This document shows positions 14,385-40,930 of a stretch of 42,187 bases of DNA, in pieces (within the stretch, counting starts at the first letter, position 1; the number at the start of each line of letters is the position of its first letter). Source of the stretch: Methylophaga sp. UBA2689. Lineage in GTDB: Bacteria; Pseudomonadota; Gammaproteobacteria; Nitrosococcales; Methylophagaceae. The stretch is from contig DELT01000094.1 in the NCBI GenBank assembly GCA_002354555.1, forward strand, positions 65,175 to 107,361, read 5' to 3'. A program made the position numbers and the translations under genes. Under the pieces are notes generated by a model. It was given only the letters and a program-made list of their open reading frames with translations, did not search any database and was not told the DNA's origin.

Positions 14385-16802
<2,418 letters not shown>

Positions 16803-16873
16803 TTAGTCCATTTACAGCAAGGTGAAGCCTAATCGTTCATTCTACTATGTATCGTCTTCGGTTGACAGCTTGA

Positions 16874-17950
16874 CTATACTTGCTCAATCACTCCACGTTC
16901 CACGTGGAACATAATGTCATTTTCTTCCCTAACTAACTTAGATGATAACTCTGTATTGGTCGTTGTGATAAAGGTTTGAACCTGTAGTTTTTTAATCGCT
17001 TGCAGCACAGAAATCTGATGCTCGTTATCCAACTCAGAGCTTAAATCATCAATTAATAACACACTTTGTTGTTTATTCAGTTGCTGCATTAACGATATTT
17101 GTGCCAGGCTTACAGCAAGAAAGAAAAGTTTCTGCTGTCCTCTTGAAAACAATTCTGCTGGATCATGTCCATCTACTCTTATCGACCAATCGGCTGAATG
17201 TGGACCTGATCGGGTATATCCAAGCGCACGATCTCTATCAATTGTTTTGTTCAAGATGTCAGCAAAATCTTCACCTTTTGGCCAGCCTGGTAGATAACGT
17301 AATTCAAATTTTGATTCTTTATAATCATTGCAAAGCAACATGAACCATTCTTTAAACCTAATTATTAATTGTTCAAGGTATTCACTTCGGTATGTTGCGA
17401 GCTTTATTCCATGTTCATTTAACGATGCATCCCAAACTTTAATTTCACCATTAGGTTTTGCATTTCGTAACGCAGCATTACGTTGAGACAGAATTTTTTT
17501 ATAAGCTTGCCAATGATAAAAAAACTCTTGTTCCACGTGAAACAATCCCCAATCGACAACTTTTCGTCTAAACCGTGGACCCAGTTCAAAAAACTGGTGG
17601 CAATTTGCAGGAATAAATTGGAGGGGAAGATGCGTGGCTAATTCAGACAGCTTTTTTAATGGAGCATTGTTAAGACGAATCTGTAAACCACTCGTATTAC
17701 CAAATTGTAATCCGACAGGAATACCCTGAATAATTCTGGCAAATAATTGAAAATATTGCTCTTCGTTTTGAACTACATTCTTCAAATTCCGCGAACGAAA
17801 AGAACGCCCCATTGCCAGCAAGTAAATAGCTTCCAACACACTGGTTTTACCAGAGCCATTTTCTCCAACCAGTAAATTTACTCCAGAACTCGGGTAGAGT
17901 TTTGCTTTATGGATATTTCGAAAATGCGTAAGGGAAAGTTCTGTCAGCAC
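16874..17950 (-). CDS. recF: DNA replication and repair protein RecF
   Basis: An SMC-like ABC ATPase that helps load RecA at gapped DNA (RecFOR pathway). The 358 residues have Walker A GENGSGKT (29-36), the ABC signature region around LFSRGQQKLFFLA, and Walker B LLIDDLSSELD followed by the D-loop. The coding sequence carries two parS-like palindromes: one around residues 136-141 encoding FHVEQ, one near the C-terminus encoding FHVER. The gene precedes gyrB, but upstream lies rubredoxin rather than dnaN. Confidence 0.96.
   Translation of the reverse strand: MLTELSLTHFRNIHKAKLYPSSGVNLLVGENGSGKTSVLEAIYLLAMGRSFRSRNLKNVVQNEEQYFQLFARIIQGIPVGLQFGNTSGLQIRLNNAPLKKLSELATHLPLQFIPANCHQFFELGPRFRRKVVDWGLFHVEQEFFYHWQAYKKILSQRNAALRNAKPNGEIKVWDASLNEHGIKLATYRSEYLEQLIIRFKEWFMLLCNDYKESKFELRYLPGWPKGEDFADILNKTIDRDRALGYTRSGPHSADWSIRVDGHDPAELFSRGQQKLFFLAVSLAQISLMQQLNKQQSVLLIDDLSSELDNEHQISVLQAIKKLQVQTFITTTNTELSSKLVREENDIMFHVERGVIEQV
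16896..16911. other. parS-like ParB-binding site 1
   Basis: CGTTCCACGTGGAACA matches the chromosomal parS pattern (TGTTTCACGTGAAACA and its TGTTCCACGTGGAACA form); relative to the latter only the first base differs. The inner 14 bases (16897-16910) are a perfect palindrome. It lies inside the 3' end of recF. Confidence 0.78.
17529..17544. other. parS-like ParB-binding site 2
   Basis: TGTTCCACGTGAAACA fits TGTTNCACGTGNAACA exactly. It lies in the middle of recF, 633 bases from site 1. Other CACGTG hexamers in the window lack the flanking arms. Confidence 0.82.
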
Positions 17951-30247: not shown

Positions 30248-33200
30248 ATGTATCCAATTCAAACCTATCGCCTGACATTATGGCTGCCAGTGGCCGTCAC
30301 CCTGTTGTTCCTTTTTATTTTGGTGTTTTATTCTGTCAATGAATATCGGCATCGGCTTTTAGATATAAAAGAAGTTTCCAGGATTCAACTCCAGGAAACA
30401 GCATTACAACTCGGGCATAGTCTTGAATATGCCCTTGCAAATAATGACTCCCTGCATGCACGAAGTAGCGTTGCCAGGTTTTCATTACGGGCGGATGCAC
30501 AACTGGCAATATTGATTGACGCTGATAATGTAATTGAATCGTCCTCTTATTTTATCTGGCAAGACCAACCCGCCGAGAAGGTGCTCGATGCTGAACTGTT
30601 GCATTATGTAAAACTTGCTCGTTCACAAAAGAGATATATTGAAAGCAGTAATGAAAATGAGGATTTACTGACCTTTTTTTTACCTTTACTTGAAGCGGAT
30701 CAACAAAAGGTTTTGGTGCTGCAGAACTCCATTAAGAAAAAATTAGAAACCGCTAAAACGGAGATCCTCAATGCAATAGCGCCTTTGCTTTTGTTGATAA
30801 CGATAGCCAATATTCTGCTGATTTTTCTGATTCGTAAATTGGTTATAAGGCCATTAAATGCGCTTCAACACCTGACCGAACAGATCCAGAATCAACAATT
30901 CGAGTTAATCAATCCACTTAAAGGCGATACTGAGCAAGCACAAGTGGGGCAGACATTGGTGGATGCTGCCAGACAGCTGCAGTCTCATATCAGCATTCTG
31001 ACTGAAAATGAGCAACGTTTACGAATCACTCTGGAATCAATTGGTGATGCCGTTATCGTTACTGATGCTGCAGGTAATATCACCCGTATGAATCGAGTTG
31101 CCAGCGAATTAACTGCCTGGCCCGAAGAAGATGCCATTGGACTACCGTTACTCAACGTTTTTGACATATATCAAGCTGATACAGGAGAGAAGCTAACTAA
31201 TCCGGTAGATCTGGTCATACAAAATGGTGAAGTGGTTGAATTATCCAATCATACCGTTTTAAAGGCCAGAAATGGCGTGAGCTACCACATATCCGACAGT
31301 GCAGCGCCGATTCGGTTGGATCATGACCGCGGAACTGAAATACTTGGAGTAATTCTGGTCTTTACTAACGTAAGTAACCAGTATCGCTTACGTCAAGAGC
31401 TACGCCAGTCTGTCGATTTTCTGAAAAATCTGCTCACTATTAGCCCCTGTGTCACTTATATTCTGGACATAAAGCAAGATACTACTACTGAATTTCGTCT
31501 GAGCTATGTGAGCGAATCCGTTATCCATTACTCTGGACATCCTGCCGAATACTGGTTAGGTCAGCCAGAAGTCTGGCAACAATCTGTTCATCCAGCTGAT
31601 ATCAATAAGGTTAAACAGACATTGTTGACTGTCTTACAGTCGGATAAACCTGTGAGCAATCAATTTCGTTTTCGTCACCGTGATGGTCATTACATTACTG
31701 TTGAAGATCACCTGTCCGTGGTAAAAAATGACCACACACATAAATTGCAAATTGTCGGCGTTGTACTGGATATCAGCGAACAAAAACATACTGCCGAGCA
31801 GAATGCATTATTTGGTGAAATCCTCGAGCAATCCCTTAACGAAATTTACGTGTTTGATGCCGAAACCTTCCAGTTTATTCATGTAAATCACGGTGCTCTT
31901 ATCAATCTGGGTTATAGCCTTGAAGAAATGCAGACCCTGACGCCGCTGGATATTAAAACCGACTATAACTTCTCGACGTTAAAAGCATTGATCGCGCCAT
32001 TATGCAGCGGTGAAACGCCAAGATTAATCTTTGAAACCAATCACCGTCGTAAGGATGGCAGTCAATATGCCGTTCATGTTGATTTGCAGACAGCAATCTA
32101 TGGCGAGAGAGAGGTGTTTATCGCCATTATTGAGGATATATCTGAACAAAAACAGGTGGAAAAGATCCTCTCTCAGGAACGTTCATTATTACGAAGTATT
32201 ATCGACTCATCGCCCGATTTGATTTTCTGTAAGGATGATCAAGGAAAATATATACGCTGTAATAAGGCCGTAATGGAATTTTTGGCCACGACAGAAGCAG
32301 ACATTATTGGAAAAACAGATTTCGATTTTTATCCGGAAAAAGAAGCTCGCAATTACCGGCACAGCGATCAACTGACGTTGCAACATAACACCAGTCAGTT
32401 TTATGAAGAAGCTGTATACGGAGCAGAGGGACAAAAAGTATTATTTGAAACCCTGAAAACCCCTCTCAAAAATGCAACCGGCAAAACGATAGGTGTACTG
32501 GGCATCAGTCGCGATATCAGTCGGCAATATGAAGCGGACAAGGAGTTACGCCTGGCCAGTCTGGTATTCGAAAATAGTAATGAAGGCATTATTATCACCA
32601 ATGAAAATAATCTCATTATTACCGTTAATCCTGCCTTTACAATCATGACCGGCTACGCCCTCGATGATGTAGCCGGAAAAAACCCTTCGATTCTTAGTTC
32701 TGGGGAACATGATCAATATTTTTATGAACAAATGTGGGCACAACTTGAGCAGCAGGGATTCTGGTCAGGTGAGGTACAGAATCGCCGGAAAAATGGTAAA
32801 ACCTATCCACAATGGTTATCGATCAGCCGTGTTGAAAACGCCCAGCAGCAACTGCAAAACTATGTCGCCATCATGTCTGATATCAGTAAATATCGTGAAG
32901 CCGAACAAAAAATTAACTTTCTGGCACATCACGATGTTCTGACCAGTCTGCCGAACCGGGCATTACTTAAAGATCGTGTGGGACAGGCACTGATATCTGC
33001 TGAACGGCATCGACAAAAACTGGCTTTACTCTATCTGGATCTGGATCGCTTTAAATTTATCAATGACAGTCTCGGCCATGCCATAGGGGATCAATTACTT
33101 ATTAAGGTCGCGGAAAGGTTGAGTCAGCAAATGCGTGAGGAAGATACCGTATGTCGGACCGGTGGTGACGAATTTATAATTTTATTACCGGATACCGATG

Positions 33201-34225
33201 CTGACGGCGCTGGCCATGTTGCTCAGAAACTGGTCGAAAATATCACTACACCTTTTGAAATTGATGGAAATCAGTTATTTGTCACCGTTTCAATTGGTAT
33301 CAGTATTTACCCTGATAATGGTGAGGATGCGGAAAGTCTTAATAAGCATGCTGATACAGCAATGTATCGGGCAAAACAGGCCGGTCGAAATCAATATCAG
33401 TTTTTTACTGCAGAAATGCACTCACAAATTGTCCATAAACTGGAACTGGAACATGCCTTGCGCTTTGCCCTGGCTCGCAATGAGCTCTCTCTGGTCTATC
33501 AACCCCTGGTTGATATAAAACTGAATAAAATCACAGGTGCTGAGGCATTGATTCGCTGGAATCACCCTGAACTTGGGAGTATCTCGCCATTGGAATTCAT
33601 CCCGATTGCGGAAGAAACCGGGATGATTAATCCGATAGGCCAATGGATATTGCACACCGCGATAGCTCAGTGCAAACAATGGGTTGATGCCGGACATAGA
33701 GATTTATTAATAGCTATCAATCTTTCTGCAGTGCAATTCAATAACCCCTTACTGGTCACTATGATTAATACCATCCTCCATGAGCATCAGTTACCAGCAG
33801 ATAATCTGGAGCTGGAAATCACCGAATCGGTGGCCATGATCAATATAGATCTGACCATCAAACAATTAAAATCACTGGCAGATGCCGGTATAAGATTGTC
33901 TCTGGATGATTTTGGAACCGGGTACTCATCGTTAAATTATTTGAAAAAATTCCCCATTAATAAACTAAAGATTGATCAAAGCTTTGTGTTTGACATGTTG
34001 ACCGATGAAGATGATGAAGCAATCGTCGATGCTGTTATTACACTGGCTCGTTCACTGGGTCTCAAAACCTTGGCAGAAGGGGTTGAAACACTTGAACATC
34101 TTAGGGTCTTGAATAATAAAGGCTGTGATTTCATGCAAGGTTATTTGTTCAGTAAACCTGTTCCGGCAGAACCATTTTTTAATTTATTAAATCATCCCCC
34201 CGTCGGTAATTTAGGCGTAGACTGA
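30248..34225 (+). CDS. Membrane sensor with multiple PAS domains, GGDEF and EAL
   Basis: A 1325-residue cyclic-di-GMP enzyme. Order: transmembrane helix (about 9-30), periplasmic sensor region (about 31-172), second helix (about 174-197), HAMP-like linker, five PAS-type domains (starting near 258, 390, 518, 644 and 768), GGDEF (about 892-1050) and EAL (about 1062-1315). The cyclase signature is intact (GGDEF at 972-976), as are the phosphodiesterase motifs: EAL at 1099-1101, AINLSAVQF, EITES, LDDFGTGYSSL, KIDQSF, AEGVE and QGYLFSKP. Either activity is possible. The ATG follows the stop of the solute-binding lipoprotein with no gap, suggesting that lipoprotein signals to the periplasmic region. 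Confidence 0.93.
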   Translation: MYPIQTYRLTLWLPVAVTLLFLFILVFYSVNEYRHRLLDIKEVSRIQLQETALQLGHSLEYALANNDSLHARSSVARFSLRADAQLAILIDADNVIESSSYFIWQDQPAEKVLDAELLHYVKLARSQKRYIESSNENEDLLTFFLPLLEADQQKVLVLQNSIKKKLETAKTEILNAIAPLLLLITIANILLIFLIRKLVIRPLNALQHLTEQIQNQQFELINPLKGDTEQAQVGQTLVDAARQLQSHISILTENEQRLRITLESIGDAVIVTDAAGNITRMNRVASELTAWPEEDAIGLPLLNVFDIYQADTGEKLTNPVDLVIQNGEVVELSNHTVLKARNGVSYHISDSAAPIRLDHDRGTEILGVILVFTNVSNQYRLRQELRQSVDFLKNLLTISPCVTYILDIKQDTTTEFRLSYVSESVIHYSGHPAEYWLGQPEVWQQSVHPADINKVKQTLLTVLQSDKPVSNQFRFRHRDGHYITVEDHLSVVKNDHTHKLQIVGVVLDISEQKHTAEQNALFGEILEQSLNEIYVFDAETFQFIHVNHGALINLGYSLEEMQTLTPLDIKTDYNFSTLKALIAPLCSGETPRLIFETNHRRKDGSQYAVHVDLQTAIYGEREVFIAIIEDISEQKQVEKILSQERSLLRSIIDSSPDLIFCKDDQGKYIRCNKAVMEFLATTEADIIGKTDFDFYPEKEARNYRHSDQLTLQHNTSQFYEEAVYGAEGQKVLFETLKTPLKNATGKTIGVLGISRDISRQYEADKELRLASLVFENSNEGIIITNENNLIITVNPAFTIMTGYALDDVAGKNPSILSSGEHDQYFYEQMWAQLEQQGFWSGEVQNRRKNGKTYPQWLSISRVENAQQQLQNYVAIMSDISKYREAEQKINFLAHHDVLTSLPNRALLKDRVGQALISAERHRQKLALLYLDLDRFKFINDSLGHAIGDQLLIKVAERLSQQMREEDTVCRTGGDEFIILLPDTDADGAGHVAQKLVENITTPFEIDGNQLFVTVSIGISIYPDNGEDAESLNKHADTAMYRAKQAGRNQYQFFTAEMHSQIVHKLELEHALRFALARNELSLVYQPLVDIKLNKITGAEALIRWNHPELGSISPLEFIPIAEETGMINPIGQWILHTAIAQCKQWVDAGHRDLLIAINLSAVQFNNPLLVTMINTILHEHQLPADNLELEITESVAMINIDLTIKQLKSLADAGIRLSLDDFGTGYSSLNYLKKFPINKLKIDQSFVFDMLTDEDDEAIVDAVITLARSLGLKTLAEGVETLEHLRVLNNKGCDFMQGYLFSKPVPAEPFFNLLNHPPVGNLGVD

Positions 34226-35064: not shown

Positions 35065-36681
35065 ATGATGTTGAATATGTTGGGATCGCTGATAGGTGGC
35101 TTGGGTTTGTTTATGCTGGGGATGTGGTTGATGTCTGACGGCCTTAAACAAATTGCCGGGGAAAGGCTCAATCAAATCCTTAAAAACTGGACTAACAGCC
35201 TTCTGCGTGGCTTAAGTGCGGGTTTTCTGCTCACCGCGATTATTCAACATTCAGGTGCAGTTACTTTGGCCACGATTGGGTTTGCCAATGCCGGTATTCT
35301 CAGCCTGCGTAGAGCTATGTGGATTGTATTTGGCAGCAATGTTGGTACGACGGTCACCGGATGGCTGGTTGTGCTGATCGGTTTCAACCTGAATATTGAA
35401 CATTTTGCCTTACCGCTAATTGGAATAGGCATGGCGATGCGCTTATTAAACAGTAATCGAGCCTATGCGAATATCGGATTGGCACTAACCGGTTTTGGCC
35501 TGCTGTTTATGGGTATAGCGGCCTTAAAAACAACCTTCTCAGGAGCTGACAGTTTATTTGATCTGCATTTCTCCAGCGGATTATTGGCCATTGATATTGT
35601 GATGTTTGCGTTGGCGGGTTTAATTCTGACCACTTTACTGCAATCTTCCAGCCTTACTTTAACTCTTGCATTGACTTCGCTCGCTGGCGGAATCATCGAT
35701 TTATTACCTGCCGCTGCAATTGTGATTGGCAGTAATCTAGGGTCAACTACGACAGCTATATTCGCCGTTATCGGCAGTCAGCCGGTCGCTAAACGTATTG
35801 TCGCCAGTCATGTTCTTTTTAATCTGCTAACAGCTATCGTCAGTCTTATTTTGCTGGTGCCGTTAATCTGGATTATCCATTGGTTTCAGCAATTAGTGGT
35901 TGAGGATGTGCAATTTACTACCACATTGGTTTTATTCCACACCGTATTTAACTTATTAGGTGTAGCACTTATCTGGAAGCTGGCCGATCCCCTGGAAAAC
36001 TGGTTGAAAACGAAGTTTTCAGCAACAGATGAAAATATTGCAGAAACGAAATATCTTGATAACATCACATTAAAGATTCCCAATCTGGCAATCACCTCCA
36101 TTCGACTTGAATTAATCCGATTGAATAAACATGTTTTAAAGATGGTGACTCATTGTATCCATAAAAACCGTTCAATTAGTTGGTTAAAACAGCAACATGC
36201 CTTTACTGAGCAAAATATTTTAAAAATTGGCAACTTCAGTCACAAACTCTACCAACAACACATTAATGAACAGATTTCTGAAAAAACGGCTGATTTATTA
36301 CGTGTTTCGCAATACTGTGATGCAATTTCTGCCTTAACCGTTGCTATTGCTGAAAACCGTGCTTTATCAAGTCATCCGATTGAGGCCCAACTGCAGCAAC
36401 AGCTCACCAATTTTAATGTGGATTGTTTACTGCTGATTGATGTTTCTGCATTAGATAAGTCCAATCCATCCTTAAAAAATCAGCTCGACAGCCTGGAAAA
36501 AACCTACCTTTCATTAAAGTCATTGTTATTGCGTCGAGGTGCTGAGGGAAGAATATCAATCGCCCGCATGGAAAAAGAATTACAAGCCATATCTCAACTG
36601 CGAAGAATTTGTCAGCAGGCCGTAAAAGCCAGTCTGTTTTTTAATAACAGTCAACTCGATCATGCTATAAAACATGCTTAA
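35065..36681 (+). CDS. Na/Pi cotransporter (NptA/PF02690) family protein
   Basis: A 538-residue membrane protein with an inverted pair of Na/Pi cotransporter repeats and a cytoplasmic PhoU-like helical C-terminal region (about 335-535). The second repeat keeps the signature LLQSSSLTLTLALTSL. The equivalent in the first repeat reads IIQHSGAVTLATIG, so the QSS motif is degenerate. GSNVGTT and GSNLGSTTTA are the paired glycine/threonine motifs. Phosphate/sodium symport is the family function; the degenerate site leaves activity uncertain. Two ATG codons occur in tandem at the start. The oriC-like region follows the stop. Confidence 0.87.
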   Translation: MMLNMLGSLIGGLGLFMLGMWLMSDGLKQIAGERLNQILKNWTNSLLRGLSAGFLLTAIIQHSGAVTLATIGFANAGILSLRRAMWIVFGSNVGTTVTGWLVVLIGFNLNIEHFALPLIGIGMAMRLLNSNRAYANIGLALTGFGLLFMGIAALKTTFSGADSLFDLHFSSGLLAIDIVMFALAGLILTTLLQSSSLTLTLALTSLAGGIIDLLPAAAIVIGSNLGSTTTAIFAVIGSQPVAKRIVASHVLFNLLTAIVSLILLVPLIWIIHWFQQLVVEDVQFTTTLVLFHTVFNLLGVALIWKLADPLENWLKTKFSATDENIAETKYLDNITLKIPNLAITSIRLELIRLNKHVLKMVTHCIHKNRSISWLKQQHAFTEQNILKIGNFSHKLYQQHINEQISEKTADLLRVSQYCDAISALTVAIAENRALSSHPIEAQLQQQLTNFNVDCLLLIDVSALDKSNPSLKNQLDSLEKTYLSLKSLLLRRGAEGRISIARMEKELQAISQLRRICQQAVKASLFFNNSQLDHAIKHA

Positions 36682-36720
36682 CAACTACGGTATGCTTTGC
36701 TTATAAAACAAGGCATAAGC

Positions 36721-36900
36721 TGTGGATAAAATCACCTGTGGATAAGTCGTTAAGTTATCCACAAGAGATCGATCCCGCAACGATAAACTTATACACAATT
36801 AGATCATTCTTTAACGTAATGAATAAAAAGGCTTTTCAGGATTAATACAGCTATCCACAGGACTAAAGCATTAACATCATTAAAAGATCTCTTTTATTTA
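36721..36900. other. Candidate chromosomal replication origin (oriC)
   Basis: Five DnaA boxes occur in 139 bases: TGTGGATAA at 36721-36729 and 36737-36745, TTATCCACA at 36755-36763, TTATACACA at 36789-36797 and CTATCCACA at 36851-36859. The first three are perfect; the fourth equals E. coli box R2. Dam sites (GATC) are at 36767, 36771, 36802 and 36886. An AT-rich stretch ends in GATCTCTTTTATT (36886-36898), one mismatch from the E. coli 13-mer pattern GATCTNTTNTTTT, though its orientation relative to the boxes is reversed. The whole lies in a gene-free 233 bases before priA. Confidence 0.68.
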
Positions 36901-36914
36901 AGTAGTATTGTTTA

Positions 36915-39089
36915 ATGAGTTGCATCGTCGAAATTGCCTTAGCTTGCCCCTTGCGTCAGACATTTGATTATCTGAGTGATGAACCAGTTGAACACTGGCA
37001 ACCCGGTATGCGTGCTGTCATTCCATTTGGCAGCAGACAGCTGATAGGGATCGTAATTGCCATCAAACCTGTCAGCGAGATTTCTACCGGTAAACTCAAA
37101 AAAATCGAACAGCAAATTGATAAACAAAGTTTTTTACCCGTTGAAATCATGGAACTGGTACAGTGGGTAAGTCGTTATTATCATCATCCTATTGGCGAAT
37201 GCTTTCAGGCAGCATTACCCAAGAAACTCCGTCTTGGTGATAGCGATGAAATGCAAACCGAAACCTATTGGGCCTTGCAACAGATACCGGACAGTAAACC
37301 GGGTAAAAAACAGCAGCAGATCCTGGATTTACTGGAGGACTATCCGGAAGGACTCAGTGAAAAAGCATTACGGGTTCAGTTAGGCAATGTAAAAAGCAGT
37401 TTGTCTGCTCTGGCACAACAAAACGTAATTACTGCCAGACAACACGTTGCATTACCGGTCCCCTGCCTTGAGCTACAACTAGCTGTTTCATTAAATAACG
37501 AACAAAAACAGTCTGTTGAACAGGTTATTGCTGAAAAAGAGCAATTTTCATCTTTTTTATTGCAAGGTATCACCGGGAGTGGCAAAACAGAGGTTTATAT
37601 TGAAATATGTCGTGAGTTTGTCGAAAACCAGCAACAGGTTTTAGTGTTAATTCCAGAGATTGGATTAACCACACAGTTTGTTGAGCGTTTCCGTCATTCC
37701 CTTGCGACCAACATCGTTGTTATAAACTCATCGGTCTCAGATGCTGATCGTAAACAGGCCTGGTTATTGGCCAGATCGGGTAAAGCCGACATTATTATCG
37801 GTACCCGCTCTGCAGTTTTTACTCCCATGCTCAATCCGGGACTGATAATCATCGATGAAGAACATGACAGTTCCTACAAACAACAGGATGGACTGCGTTA
37901 TCACGCCCGAAATGTGGCATTGATGCGAGCTAAAACACTGAATATTCCCATTGTGCTGGGCAGTGCAACGCCTTCTCTGGAAACCCTTTACCAAGTAAAA
38001 CTGAAACGTTATCAGTTACTTAGGTTAACAAAACGTGCTGGTGGAGCGACACTGCCCAACATTAAGCTTATTGCTGCCAATAAAACAGCAGATAACAATG
38101 GTTTAAGTTCAGTGTTAATTAATTCTATTGAAAAACATCTGCAGCAAAATCATCAGGTTCTATTATTTATAAATCGTCGTGGATTCGCACCGGTTTTGAT
38201 GTGTCATGAATGTAACTGGCAGGCGAATTGCCGAAGTTGTGATGCCAAAATGGTGGTTCATCAACATCAAAACCGTTTGTTTTGTCATCATTGTGGTTTG
38301 ATCCAGACACTACCGAAAAAATGTCCTGAATGTGGTCATTCCGAACTTAAAAGTTATGGCGTCGGAACAGAGAAAATTGAGCAGGCTCTGACAGCAATTT
38401 TTAACGATGTACCGGTTTTACGGATTGATCGGGATAGTACCCAACGGGTCAATGCCTTTGCCAATATGGTCAAACAGATTAATCAGGGGCAGGCGGCTAT
38501 TCTGGTGGGTACGCAGATGCTGGCTAAAGGACATGATTTTCATGATGTGACGCTGGTCGGTGTTGTGGATGCTGATCAGGCCTTATTCAGTGCTGATTTC
38601 CGAGCAACTGAAGGGCTGGCACAGTTAATTACTCAGGTTACTGGTCGGGCTGGACGTGGCAAAAAGTCAGGGGAAGTCTTGATACAAAGCGAACAACCGG
38701 AGCACCCTTTCTGGAAAAAATTACTACAGGATGGTTATGAAGCTATCGCTGAAAATTTATTAGCAGAACGAATTCAAATGGAGCTGCCCCCTCATGGTTT
38801 CTGGGCAGTCTGGCGCGCTGAGGCAAAAGAAGCCGATTTAGCTATGCAATTATTACAACAGGTTGCCGAATTATTGCAGCAAACCGCATCAGGGGTCATG
38901 ATTTTAGGACCGGTTCCAGCTTTAATGGAAAAACGTGCCGGTCGATATCGGGCACAATTGCTGATGCGATCCGCAGATCGTGCATCGTTGCACCAATTAA
39001 TCGACCAACATATCGAAGCTGTCAGCAAGCTTAAACTGGCGCGAAAAGGTCGTTGGTCGATTGACATCGATCCTACTGAATTAATCTAA
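36915..39089 (+). CDS. priA: Primosomal protein N' (replication restart helicase PriA)
   Basis: A DEXH helicase that reloads the replisome at stalled forks. The 724 residues have the N-terminal DNA-binding domain, Walker A GITGSGKTEVY (about 217-227), the DEEH box IIDEEHDSSYKQQDGLRYHARN, the eight-cysteine zinc region starting MCHECNWQANCRSCDAKM and continuing FCHHCG...CPECGH, and GTQMLAKGHDF and QVTGRAGRG of the helicase core. It begins 15 bases after the AT-rich element of the oriC candidate. No strong Shine-Dalgarno is visible. Confidence 0.96.
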   Translation: MSCIVEIALACPLRQTFDYLSDEPVEHWQPGMRAVIPFGSRQLIGIVIAIKPVSEISTGKLKKIEQQIDKQSFLPVEIMELVQWVSRYYHHPIGECFQAALPKKLRLGDSDEMQTETYWALQQIPDSKPGKKQQQILDLLEDYPEGLSEKALRVQLGNVKSSLSALAQQNVITARQHVALPVPCLELQLAVSLNNEQKQSVEQVIAEKEQFSSFLLQGITGSGKTEVYIEICREFVENQQQVLVLIPEIGLTTQFVERFRHSLATNIVVINSSVSDADRKQAWLLARSGKADIIIGTRSAVFTPMLNPGLIIIDEEHDSSYKQQDGLRYHARNVALMRAKTLNIPIVLGSATPSLETLYQVKLKRYQLLRLTKRAGGATLPNIKLIAANKTADNNGLSSVLINSIEKHLQQNHQVLLFINRRGFAPVLMCHECNWQANCRSCDAKMVVHQHQNRLFCHHCGLIQTLPKKCPECGHSELKSYGVGTEKIEQALTAIFNDVPVLRIDRDSTQRVNAFANMVKQINQGQAAILVGTQMLAKGHDFHDVTLVGVVDADQALFSADFRATEGLAQLITQVTGRAGRGKKSGEVLIQSEQPEHPFWKKLLQDGYEAIAENLLAERIQMELPPHGFWAVWRAEAKEADLAMQLLQQVAELLQQTASGVMILGPVPALMEKRAGRYRAQLLMRSADRASLHQLIDQHIEAVSKLKLARKGRWSIDIDPTELI

Positions 39090-39166: not shown

Positions 39167-40930
39167 TTGAAAGACCAATTAAAAGAACTTATTGAAAGTG
39201 CTTTAGCTTCGTTGATTACCCAACAAAGCCTTCCAGCAGATGTTTCATCCGCTGATGTTCAGCTGGAGCGAACCAAAGATCGTAGTCATGGTGATTTCGC
39301 CAGTAATATTGCGATGGTATTAGCCAAACCCGCCAAAATGAATCCTCGGCAAATAGCGACATTGATTGTTGATGCGCTTCCCCAGCATGAAATGATTGAG
39401 AAAGTAGAAATTGCCGGTCCAGGATTTATTAATTTCAGCTTATCCGCTAGCTCAAGGCAACAGGTGGTGGCAGATGTCCTGAAAAAAGCCGGCCAATTTG
39501 GTCTGAGCAATTACGGCAATGGTCAGAAAGTTCAGGTGGAGTTTGTTTCGGCCAATCCAACCGGACCACTGCATGTAGGCCATGGTCGTGGCGCGGCATA
39601 TGGTTCAGTCGTCAGCAGCTTGTTAAAAGCCGTAGGATTTGATGTTCACCGTGAATATTACGTAAATGATGCTGGCCGTCAGATGGATATTCTGGCCACC
39701 AGTGTCTGGCTGAGATACCTGGAAAAATGTGGCGAACAGTTTACTTTTCCAAGTAACGGATATCGCGGGGAATATGTCTTAGACATTGCTGAAACCTTAA
39801 AACAACAGCATGGAAATGCATTGTTTCATAAAGCATCTCTGGTTTTTGATGGTGTTCCGGCGGATGAACCTCAAGGTGGTGATAAAGAGCTGCATATAGA
39901 TGGGCTGACACAACAGGCCAAAAATCTTCTTGGGGCAGATGTGTATCGTCAGCTGTTTGATTTGGGCCTCAATGCCATTCTGGATGATATTCGTAATGAC
40001 TTGGCTGGGTTTGGTGCCGAATACGATGAATGGTTTTCTGAGCGTTCACTGGTGGAATCCGGTGTGGTTGATGAAGCTGTTGAACAACTGAAAGCCGCCA
40101 ATATGCTTTATCAGCAGGATGGTGCCTGGTGGTTTAAATCCACTGATTTTGGCGATGAAAAAGACCGGGTGGTGGTTCGTGACAATGGTCAGGCAACCTA
40201 TTTCGCTTCTGATGTCGCTTATCACCTGAATAAATTCAATCGTGGCTTTGATCAGATTATTGATATCTGGGGCGCCGATCATCACGGTTATATAACACGG
40301 GTGAAAGCCTCTATGGAGGCGCTGAATCAGGATGTCAGCAAGCTGAAAGTTTTACTGGTGCAGTTTGCTGTGTTGTATCGTGGTAAAGAAAAAGTCGGTA
40401 TGTCGACTCGTAGCGGAGAGTTTGTCACATTACGCGAACTGCGTGACGAGGTCGGTAAAGACGCTGCCCGTTTCTTTTATGTGATGCGTGGTGCTGACCA
40501 GCATATGGATTTTGATCTTGAACTGGCAAAATCACAAAGTAATGATAATCCGGTATATTACGTTCAATATGCACACGCACGTGTCTGCAGTGTTTTCCGC
40601 CAACTGGCAGAAAGACAGATGAACTGGGATGAGCAGACAGGAATAGGCAACCTGTCTTTATTGACCGAGGATCATGAACAGGCTTTGTTTACTATGTTGT
40701 CACGTTATCCCGAAGTGGTGGAACTGGCAGCTATAACACATACCCCCCATTTACTGGCGCATTTCCTAATGGATTTGGCACGTGATTTTCACACCTACTA
40801 CAACGCTCACCAGTTTATGACAGATAATATTGATTTAAGTCAGGCACGACTGACGCTGATCACCGCGGTCAGGCAGGTTATTGCCAATGGTCTTGGGTTA
40901 ATGGGCGTTTCAGCGCCACAATCAATGTAA
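39167..40930 (+). CDS. argS: Arginyl-tRNA synthetase
   Basis: Class I aminoacyl-tRNA synthetase of 587 residues. The N-terminal tRNA-recognition (Add1) domain has [23 protein letters not shown] in part; the HIGH-type motif is HVGHG at about 136-140 ([13 protein letters not shown]); the KMSKS loop is replaced by KVGMSTR (about 409-415), as usual for bacterial ArgS. The C-terminal anticodon-binding helical domain ends [14 protein letters not shown]. The start is taken as TTG at 39167, because the next ATG would remove the conserved N-terminal domain; no strong ribosome-binding site is seen. It precedes the SPOR gene by nine bases. Confidence 0.95.

Follow-up and report, generated by a model that had tools for sequence, protein, structure and literature searches.

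The intergenic gap directly upstream of priA in the DNA analysed here is very probably the chromosomal replication origin, oriC, of a Methylophaga-like bacterium and, as judged from comparison with its relatives, of most of its family. In silico, an oriC at priA is strongly supported by the DnaA boxes of the gap, their layout and conservation, an element of low predicted stability, a turn of the GC skew and the absence of a box cluster at the dnaA loci. The original prediction had put forward a probable oriC upstream of priA, a proposal now supported by the skew turn in three relatives, the lack of a cluster at dnaA and the conservation within the family. The whole stretch that we analysed, termed the window, is 42,187 nucleotides long and corresponds to positions 65175-107361 of contig C66 in a 2.9-Mb draft genome of 111 contigs (G000). 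The best named match to its PriA, at 84% identity, comes from a Methylophaga sp. MAG, which suggests that the genome is Methylophaga-like. The features of the gap and its neighbours are as follows.

14385-17950, strand n/a, recF-gyrB, approximately 19 kb from the box cluster
35065-36681, strand n/a, Na/Pi-symporter-like gene, left neighbour of the gap
36682-36914, strand n/a, intergenic gap with the proposed oriC, 233 bp, non-coding, between the Na/Pi-symporter-like gene and priA
36721-36729, minus strand, DnaA box 1, TTATCCACA, perfect
36737-36745, minus strand, DnaA box 2, TTATCCACA, perfect, starting 16 bp after the start of box 1
36755-36763, plus strand, DnaA box 3, TTATCCACA, perfect, in opposite orientation to boxes 1 and 2, starting 18 bp after box 2
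36789-36797, plus strand, DnaA box 4, TTATACACA, starting 34 bp after box 3
36812-36824, minus strand, candidate IHF-like site between boxes 4 and 5, with 2 mismatches in the window's genome and better in most relatives
36851-36859, plus strand, DnaA box 5, CTATCCACA, adjoining the predicted unwinding element, in an R1-like place
36861-36914, strand n/a, probable DNA unwinding element (predicted), AT-rich, of low predicted stability
36869-36881, conserved CATTAACATCATT inside the predicted unwinding element
36886-36898, plus strand, 13-mer-like GATCTCTTTTATT inside the predicted unwinding element, one mismatch to the E. coli motif
36915-39089, plus strand, priA, replication restart helicase, 724 aa, directly right of the gap
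39167-40930, plus strand, argS, next gene after priA

The five boxes, two on the minus and three on the plus strand, fall within 139 bases of non-coding DNA (36721-36859), just as the original prediction had described, and its division into three perfect boxes and two degenerate ones also holds (three copies of TTATCCACA, one each of TTATACACA and CTATCCACA). Their starts are 16, 18, 34 and 62 bp apart and the smallest space between two boxes is 7 bp; a double DnaA box, in which two boxes stand 2-3 bp apart, is absent from the gap. The four GATC sites reported beside the boxes are present at 36767, 36771, 36802 and 36886, compared with 0.93 expected in 233 bp from the window's own frequency. 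The AT-rich block with its near match to the E. coli 13-mer was likewise recovered. The 13-mer GATCTNTTNTTTT occurs in the predicted unwinding element as a single copy with one mismatch (GATCTCTTTTATT, at 36886), an equally good match being found once elsewhere in the window, and the least stable 60-mer of the gap by prediction starts at 36861, overlaps the first 6 bases of priA and is among the lowest 0.04% of the window's positions, though not necessarily the window minimum. The inverted orientation of the 13-mer had been raised as a caveat. This weighs little as an objection: the 13-mer is an E. coli motif, and the conserved part here is an AT-rich element carrying CATTAACATCAT.

Over the whole window the loose pattern TTWTNCACA is not enriched (8 matches compared with 5.94 expected, a number reached by 22 of 100 shuffles), and four of these eight matches are packed into 77 bases of the priA gap. 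The 162-kb contig C66 holds 72 boxes at no more than one mismatch, and outside the priA cluster every 250-bp stretch contains at most two. Box density, GATC sites, the unstable 60-mer and the contig count together show that the earlier observation was right and is not a product of chance. A DnaA-trio motif in the gap is weak as judged by eye, and Rfam gave zero matches at gathering scores over the window. Separately, the window at 30248-34225 encodes a protein of 1325 aa that has matches of GGDEF and EAL type besides several PAS boxes and is probably a c-di-GMP enzyme.

The original prediction had also proposed looking for the gap in related genomes, and it is conserved there. A search for boxes 1 and 2 at 15-17-bp spacing recovered 49 of 57 family genomes and none of six genomes from the order's other family; the exact pattern is missing from eight family genomes, three of which are listed as 99-100% complete. 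A wider set of 370 genomes of the class, with four members of the window's family among them, gave the pattern in two of these members and also in two genomes from a single further family, in which its position is near dnaA. For alignment, 76 candidate loci gave 69 with a readable priA start and 330 bp upstream, and from these 45 unique sequences were aligned. Only 23 of the 45, the window's own included, are free of selection, since these came from priA searches alone and the others from loci chosen by the pattern. Boxes 1 and 2 are exact in all 23 unique priA-found sequences, and in 45 of 45 when the pattern-found loci are added.

The anatomy of the element is shared as well. It sits 188-202 bp before the priA start throughout the family, with boxes 1-3 almost invariant in the 45 rows, box 4 mostly TTATCAACA, and the 16/18/34 spacing of boxes 1-4 retained. 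Box 4 is mostly followed by one or two boxes and then by GG and the conserved CATTAACATCAT, which lies in AT-rich DNA that reaches to the priA start, so that the AT-rich element abuts the gene. An IHF-like site precedes the last box: at 0-1 mismatch it is present between boxes 4 and 5 in 36 of 45 sequences, in 35 of which it keeps a single offset to within 2 bp, compared with 11 of 45 in dinucleotide shuffles and 7 of 45 in a neighbouring stretch used as control, although these and the layout counts are not independent because the aligned rows are related. The number of GATC sites is not conserved and ranges from 0 to 6 per 320 bp among family loci. A SeqA homologue was found in none of the 57 family genomes (the E. 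coli control was positive), and with the variable GATC number this led us to reject SeqA sequestration at these sites. Matches to PF02086, the D12-class methyltransferases among which a Dam homologue was sought, occur in 51 of the 57 genomes, weakly in the window's own. One family locus (L276, in G024) carries three extra DnaA boxes 496-383 bp upstream of priA, which lie beyond the conserved cluster and may be part of an additional copy.

An oriC is usually sought beside dnaA or gidA/mnmG. The original prediction had called a place next to priA unusual, and it is: in three relatives (G007, G005 and G002) dnaA lies 123-217 kb from the priA cluster, inside one arm of the chromosome. The dnaA locus of G000 has the order yidC-rnpA-rpmH-dnaA-dnaN (rpmH read by eye) with one one-mismatch box in 3.5 kb, and none of eight dnaA loci carries a box cluster, each having 0 or 1 one-mismatch box in approximately 3.5 kb. 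recF and gyrB often come next after dnaN. Here recF-gyrB is in the window and dnaA-dnaN on another contig of G000, and thus the classical dnaA-dnaN-recF-gyrB block is split.

The GC skew of these three relatives, which belong to the window's genus and have their chromosome in one contig, was sampled rather than computed over the full sequence, using 60 stretches of 20 kb in G007 (3.135 Mb) and 20 stretches each in G005 and G002, some of those in G002 being masked. In G007 the samples have negative skew as far as 280 kb and positive skew beginning at 312 kb, and the origin side of the best two-break fit is at this turn; the cluster lies at 305.7 kb, and the position of dnaA is 160 kb. In G005 it passes from -0.025 (1,415-1,435 kb) to +0.093 (1,442-1,462 kb), with the cluster at 1,438.7 kb and dnaA at 1,655.6 kb. 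In G002 the values run from -0.065 (1,965-1,985 kb) through +0.012 (1,990-2,010 kb) to +0.065 (2,020-2,040 kb), placing the turn between 1,985 and 1,990 kb, with the cluster at 1,988.0 kb and dnaA at 1,865.0 kb. The sign therefore changes at the priA cluster in all three sampled chromosomes, within gaps of 5, 7 and 32 kb, and is equal on either side of dnaA in each. A distant skew minimum combined with a stronger box cluster elsewhere, for example at dnaA, had been named in the original prediction as evidence that would count against this site; in the relatives the turn is at priA and the dnaA loci have no cluster.

A search with a dif pattern gave dif-like sites at 1,989 kb in G007 and 2,958 kb in G005, where a second, weaker match with 2 mismatches lies at 511 kb, and none in G002. 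Measured to the dif-like site, the arms are closer to equal from the priA cluster, at 54/46 (G007) and 49/51 (G005), than from dnaA, at 58/42 and 42/58. Close to the cluster, 15 of 23 family loci combine a negative skew in the left 6-kb flank with a positive one in the right, three of these 15 having a left value no more than 0.005 from zero, compared with 2 of 60 loci from other gammaproteobacteria; the left flank is positive in seven of the 23 (G050, G005, G021, G052, L016, L019 and L020). On contig C66 itself there is a skew change-point matched in strength by 0 of 2000 permutations, with 2-kb bins that are not independent. Both the best change-point and the cumulative minimum fall in a flat region at approximately 84 kb, which is 18 kb to the left of the cluster; from 83.6 to 101.9 kb the third-position skew stays close to zero. 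The skew of C66 alone would not pin the exact origin position. KOPS-like motifs are few in the G007 samples, where their cumulative minimum (416-488 kb samples) lies more than 110 kb past the cluster on the side opposite dnaA, a point that speaks against the site; in the samples of G002 and G005 they are too few to show a trend.

DnaA control of priA had been offered as an alternative, in which the boxes form a DnaA-responsive regulatory site for the gene and not an origin, and other gammaproteobacteria lend it some weight. A double DnaA box, TCCACANANTTWTCCACAG, is present in 186 of 370 class genomes. We checked the neighbourhood of priA in 80 of the 98 genomes among the matches listed, 77 of which gave a priA match, and the motif stood upstream of priA on the same strand in 30 of these 80. 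It lies 73-329 bp from the matched priA start in 29 of the 30 and 918 bp away in one with a partial match; a 31st case (G412), where it is ahead of a second, partial priA match, is outside this count. When 30 TCCACANANTTWTCCACAG loci were read around the motif, priA was beside 11 and dnaA beside 4, while others lay next to hemW-like, purL-like, typA-like or DUF2782 genes or to genes without an obvious connection. In 61 of 74 non-family loci the 600 bp before priA contain no box at one mismatch. In E. coli, according to PMC11317965, most of the sites bound by DnaA contain double boxes, both regulatory sites, upstream of polA, purH and nrdA, and oriC, datA and DARS2; as control sites and oriC alike carry them, the motif alone cannot separate one from the other. 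The one double-box genome that we sampled for skew, G092, has its site 156 bp before priA at 826 kb and dnaA at 574 kb. Its skew was sampled in six 10-kb stretches, of which one lies to the left of dnaA: the turn falls between 570 and 640 kb, close to dnaA, and priA has positive skew to its left and right. A DnaA site ahead of priA is therefore not in itself an origin. A class-wide origin at priA, which we had considered from the 30 double boxes, was not upheld in view of the turn in G092; these boxes suggest that priA may be DnaA-controlled in many gammaproteobacteria.

DnaA control fits those bacteria, with double boxes of a different kind at priA, better than the window's family. The family element shares with the E. 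coli double boxes a place upstream of a replication gene, but differs from their 2-3-bp separation (passages of PMC11317965) in having spaced boxes, together with an IHF-like site and an AT-rich element. Regulation of priA may act here too and coexist with an origin; on its own, however, it leaves the skew turn at the cluster and the oriC-like anatomy unexplained, and we consider it very unlikely that the boxes are a regulatory site in place of an origin. Less probable still is a DnaA titration or reactivation site, similar to datA or DARS, close to an origin within the same few kb. Such loci also bind DnaA, and PMC4451416 describes regulation of DARS2 by Fis and IHF, but contig C66 has no second box cluster and the skew turns within 5-7 kb of the cluster in two chromosomes. 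We give hardly any weight to an origin in the rpmH-dnaA gap, as in Pseudomonas, with the skew turn at priA a relic of rearrangement. The gene order kept at dnaA in G000 would suit it, but the eight loci without a cluster and the single skew sign across dnaA in all three relatives oppose it, and an origin at dnaA was rejected with neither a box cluster nor a skew turn to mark it. In the window's family it is the skew and the anatomy, beyond a mere DnaA site at priA, that make the case for an origin.

Several features of a DnaA-dependent oriC are present at this gap: a box cluster in non-coding DNA, a predicted AT-rich unwinding element, a skew turn in the three relatives, and conservation. From this arrangement we infer binding of DnaA and IHF, unwinding and helicase loading. 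DnaA would occupy boxes 1-2, which point one way, and boxes 3-5, which point the other, and a bend at the IHF-like site between boxes 4 and 5 could bring box 5 to the other boxes. A DnaA filament would then open the AT-rich element that separates box 5 from the start codon of priA, where DnaB may be loaded and two forks launched.

In five genomes of a sister genus two matches to the box pattern lie approximately 2.5 kb apart. The second copy (L266-L270, in G033, G047, G043, G039 and G034) is 74-264 bp past the end of the priA match, before a gene that reads as argS in all five. The upstream and downstream copies have the same orientation and match at 70-72% over approximately 230 bp in four genomes and at 69% over 175 bp in G034. 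All five genomes have, in each copy, three exact boxes at 16/18 spacing, further boxes downstream of these and, as judged by eye, an AT-rich element. In a joint alignment the upstream copies of G033, G047 and G039 agree at 0.74-0.92 and their downstream copies at 0.72-0.95, those of G043 and G034 agree at 0.86 and 0.75 respectively, and the two positions of one genome agree at 0.60-0.68. Because copies at the same position agree better than the two positions within a genome, both look old and retained within each clade. On a priA tree, in which the G005 row is an artefact of a broken frame, the five genomes fall in two clades and two changes are required. Their history may have involved two duplications, or one and a loss; the copy tree is compatible with either. 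The priA match of G005, a single-contig genome, is itself in three pieces (G005:C1:1438928-1441103), either because the gene is broken or through an error in sequencing. As a pointer to the active copy we compared the GC3 skew of priA: the values in the five genomes (0.054, 0.059, -0.039, 0.080 and -0.040) overlap those of 12 single-copy genomes.

A tentative picture, which we hold with less than even confidence, is that the origin settled at priA and was duplicated in part of the sister genus, leaving priA between two complete, retained oriC copies; this would be a naturally twin-origin chromosome, perhaps with initiation coupled to the expression of priA. These genomes would allow one to ask whether a bacterium keeps two adjacent origins, and which of them fires. 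More generally, an origin at priA would mean that origins are able to move away from dnaA and become established at a different replication gene, one that other gammaproteobacteria may already keep under DnaA control. It is an attractive, if speculative, idea that an ancestral DnaA control site at priA was turned into an origin. The finding also advises caution with origin calls based on the position of dnaA.

What is new is the location of the origin at priA and the twin copies; the origin itself is ordinary in kind. In the titles and abstract starts of the open PMC literature, the matches listed contained neither an oriC at priA in Methylophaga, for which DoriC may hold a prediction, nor a twin oriC around priA. 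Term searches of the main texts of Ori-Finder 2022 (PMC10225481) and gammaBOriS (PMC7174414) returned no priA and no Methylophaga. The nearest precedent is the gene list for the oriC of Francisella tularensis in an excerpt of PMC5859110, where priA and dnaA are both among the marker genes near oriC. Likened by description rather than by sequence, that origin too has priA nearby, but dnaA as well. The bipartite oriC of Bacillus and Helicobacter flanks dnaA, and its two parts share one unwinding element. The twin genomes are similar in that box clusters flank one replication gene, but the flanked gene is priA and each copy has both boxes and an AT-rich element. Pseudomonas-type oriC lies in the rpmH-dnaA gap. 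Like the present site it is a gammaproteobacterial origin with DnaA boxes, placed in a gap before a replication gene. Here, by contrast, no box cluster lies between rpmH and dnaA, and dnaA is far from both the cluster and the skew turn.

The boxes of E. coli oriC form two groups of opposed orientation. According to PMC4451416, the unwinding element of this origin is followed by R1, then by a 45-bp gap that holds an IHF site, and then by R5M. Unlike E. coli oriC, which lies between gidA and mioC, the present site is upstream of priA, has five recognisable boxes and belongs to a family in which SeqA was not found (0/57). An IHF-like site of the E. coli type is present at 0-1 mismatch in most of the family alignment, the window's own having 2. 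In a comparison based on recognisable boxes, with low-affinity arrays outside it, the two origins are alike in their opposed box groups, the R1-like box beside an AT-rich element, and the IHF-like site in the next gap.
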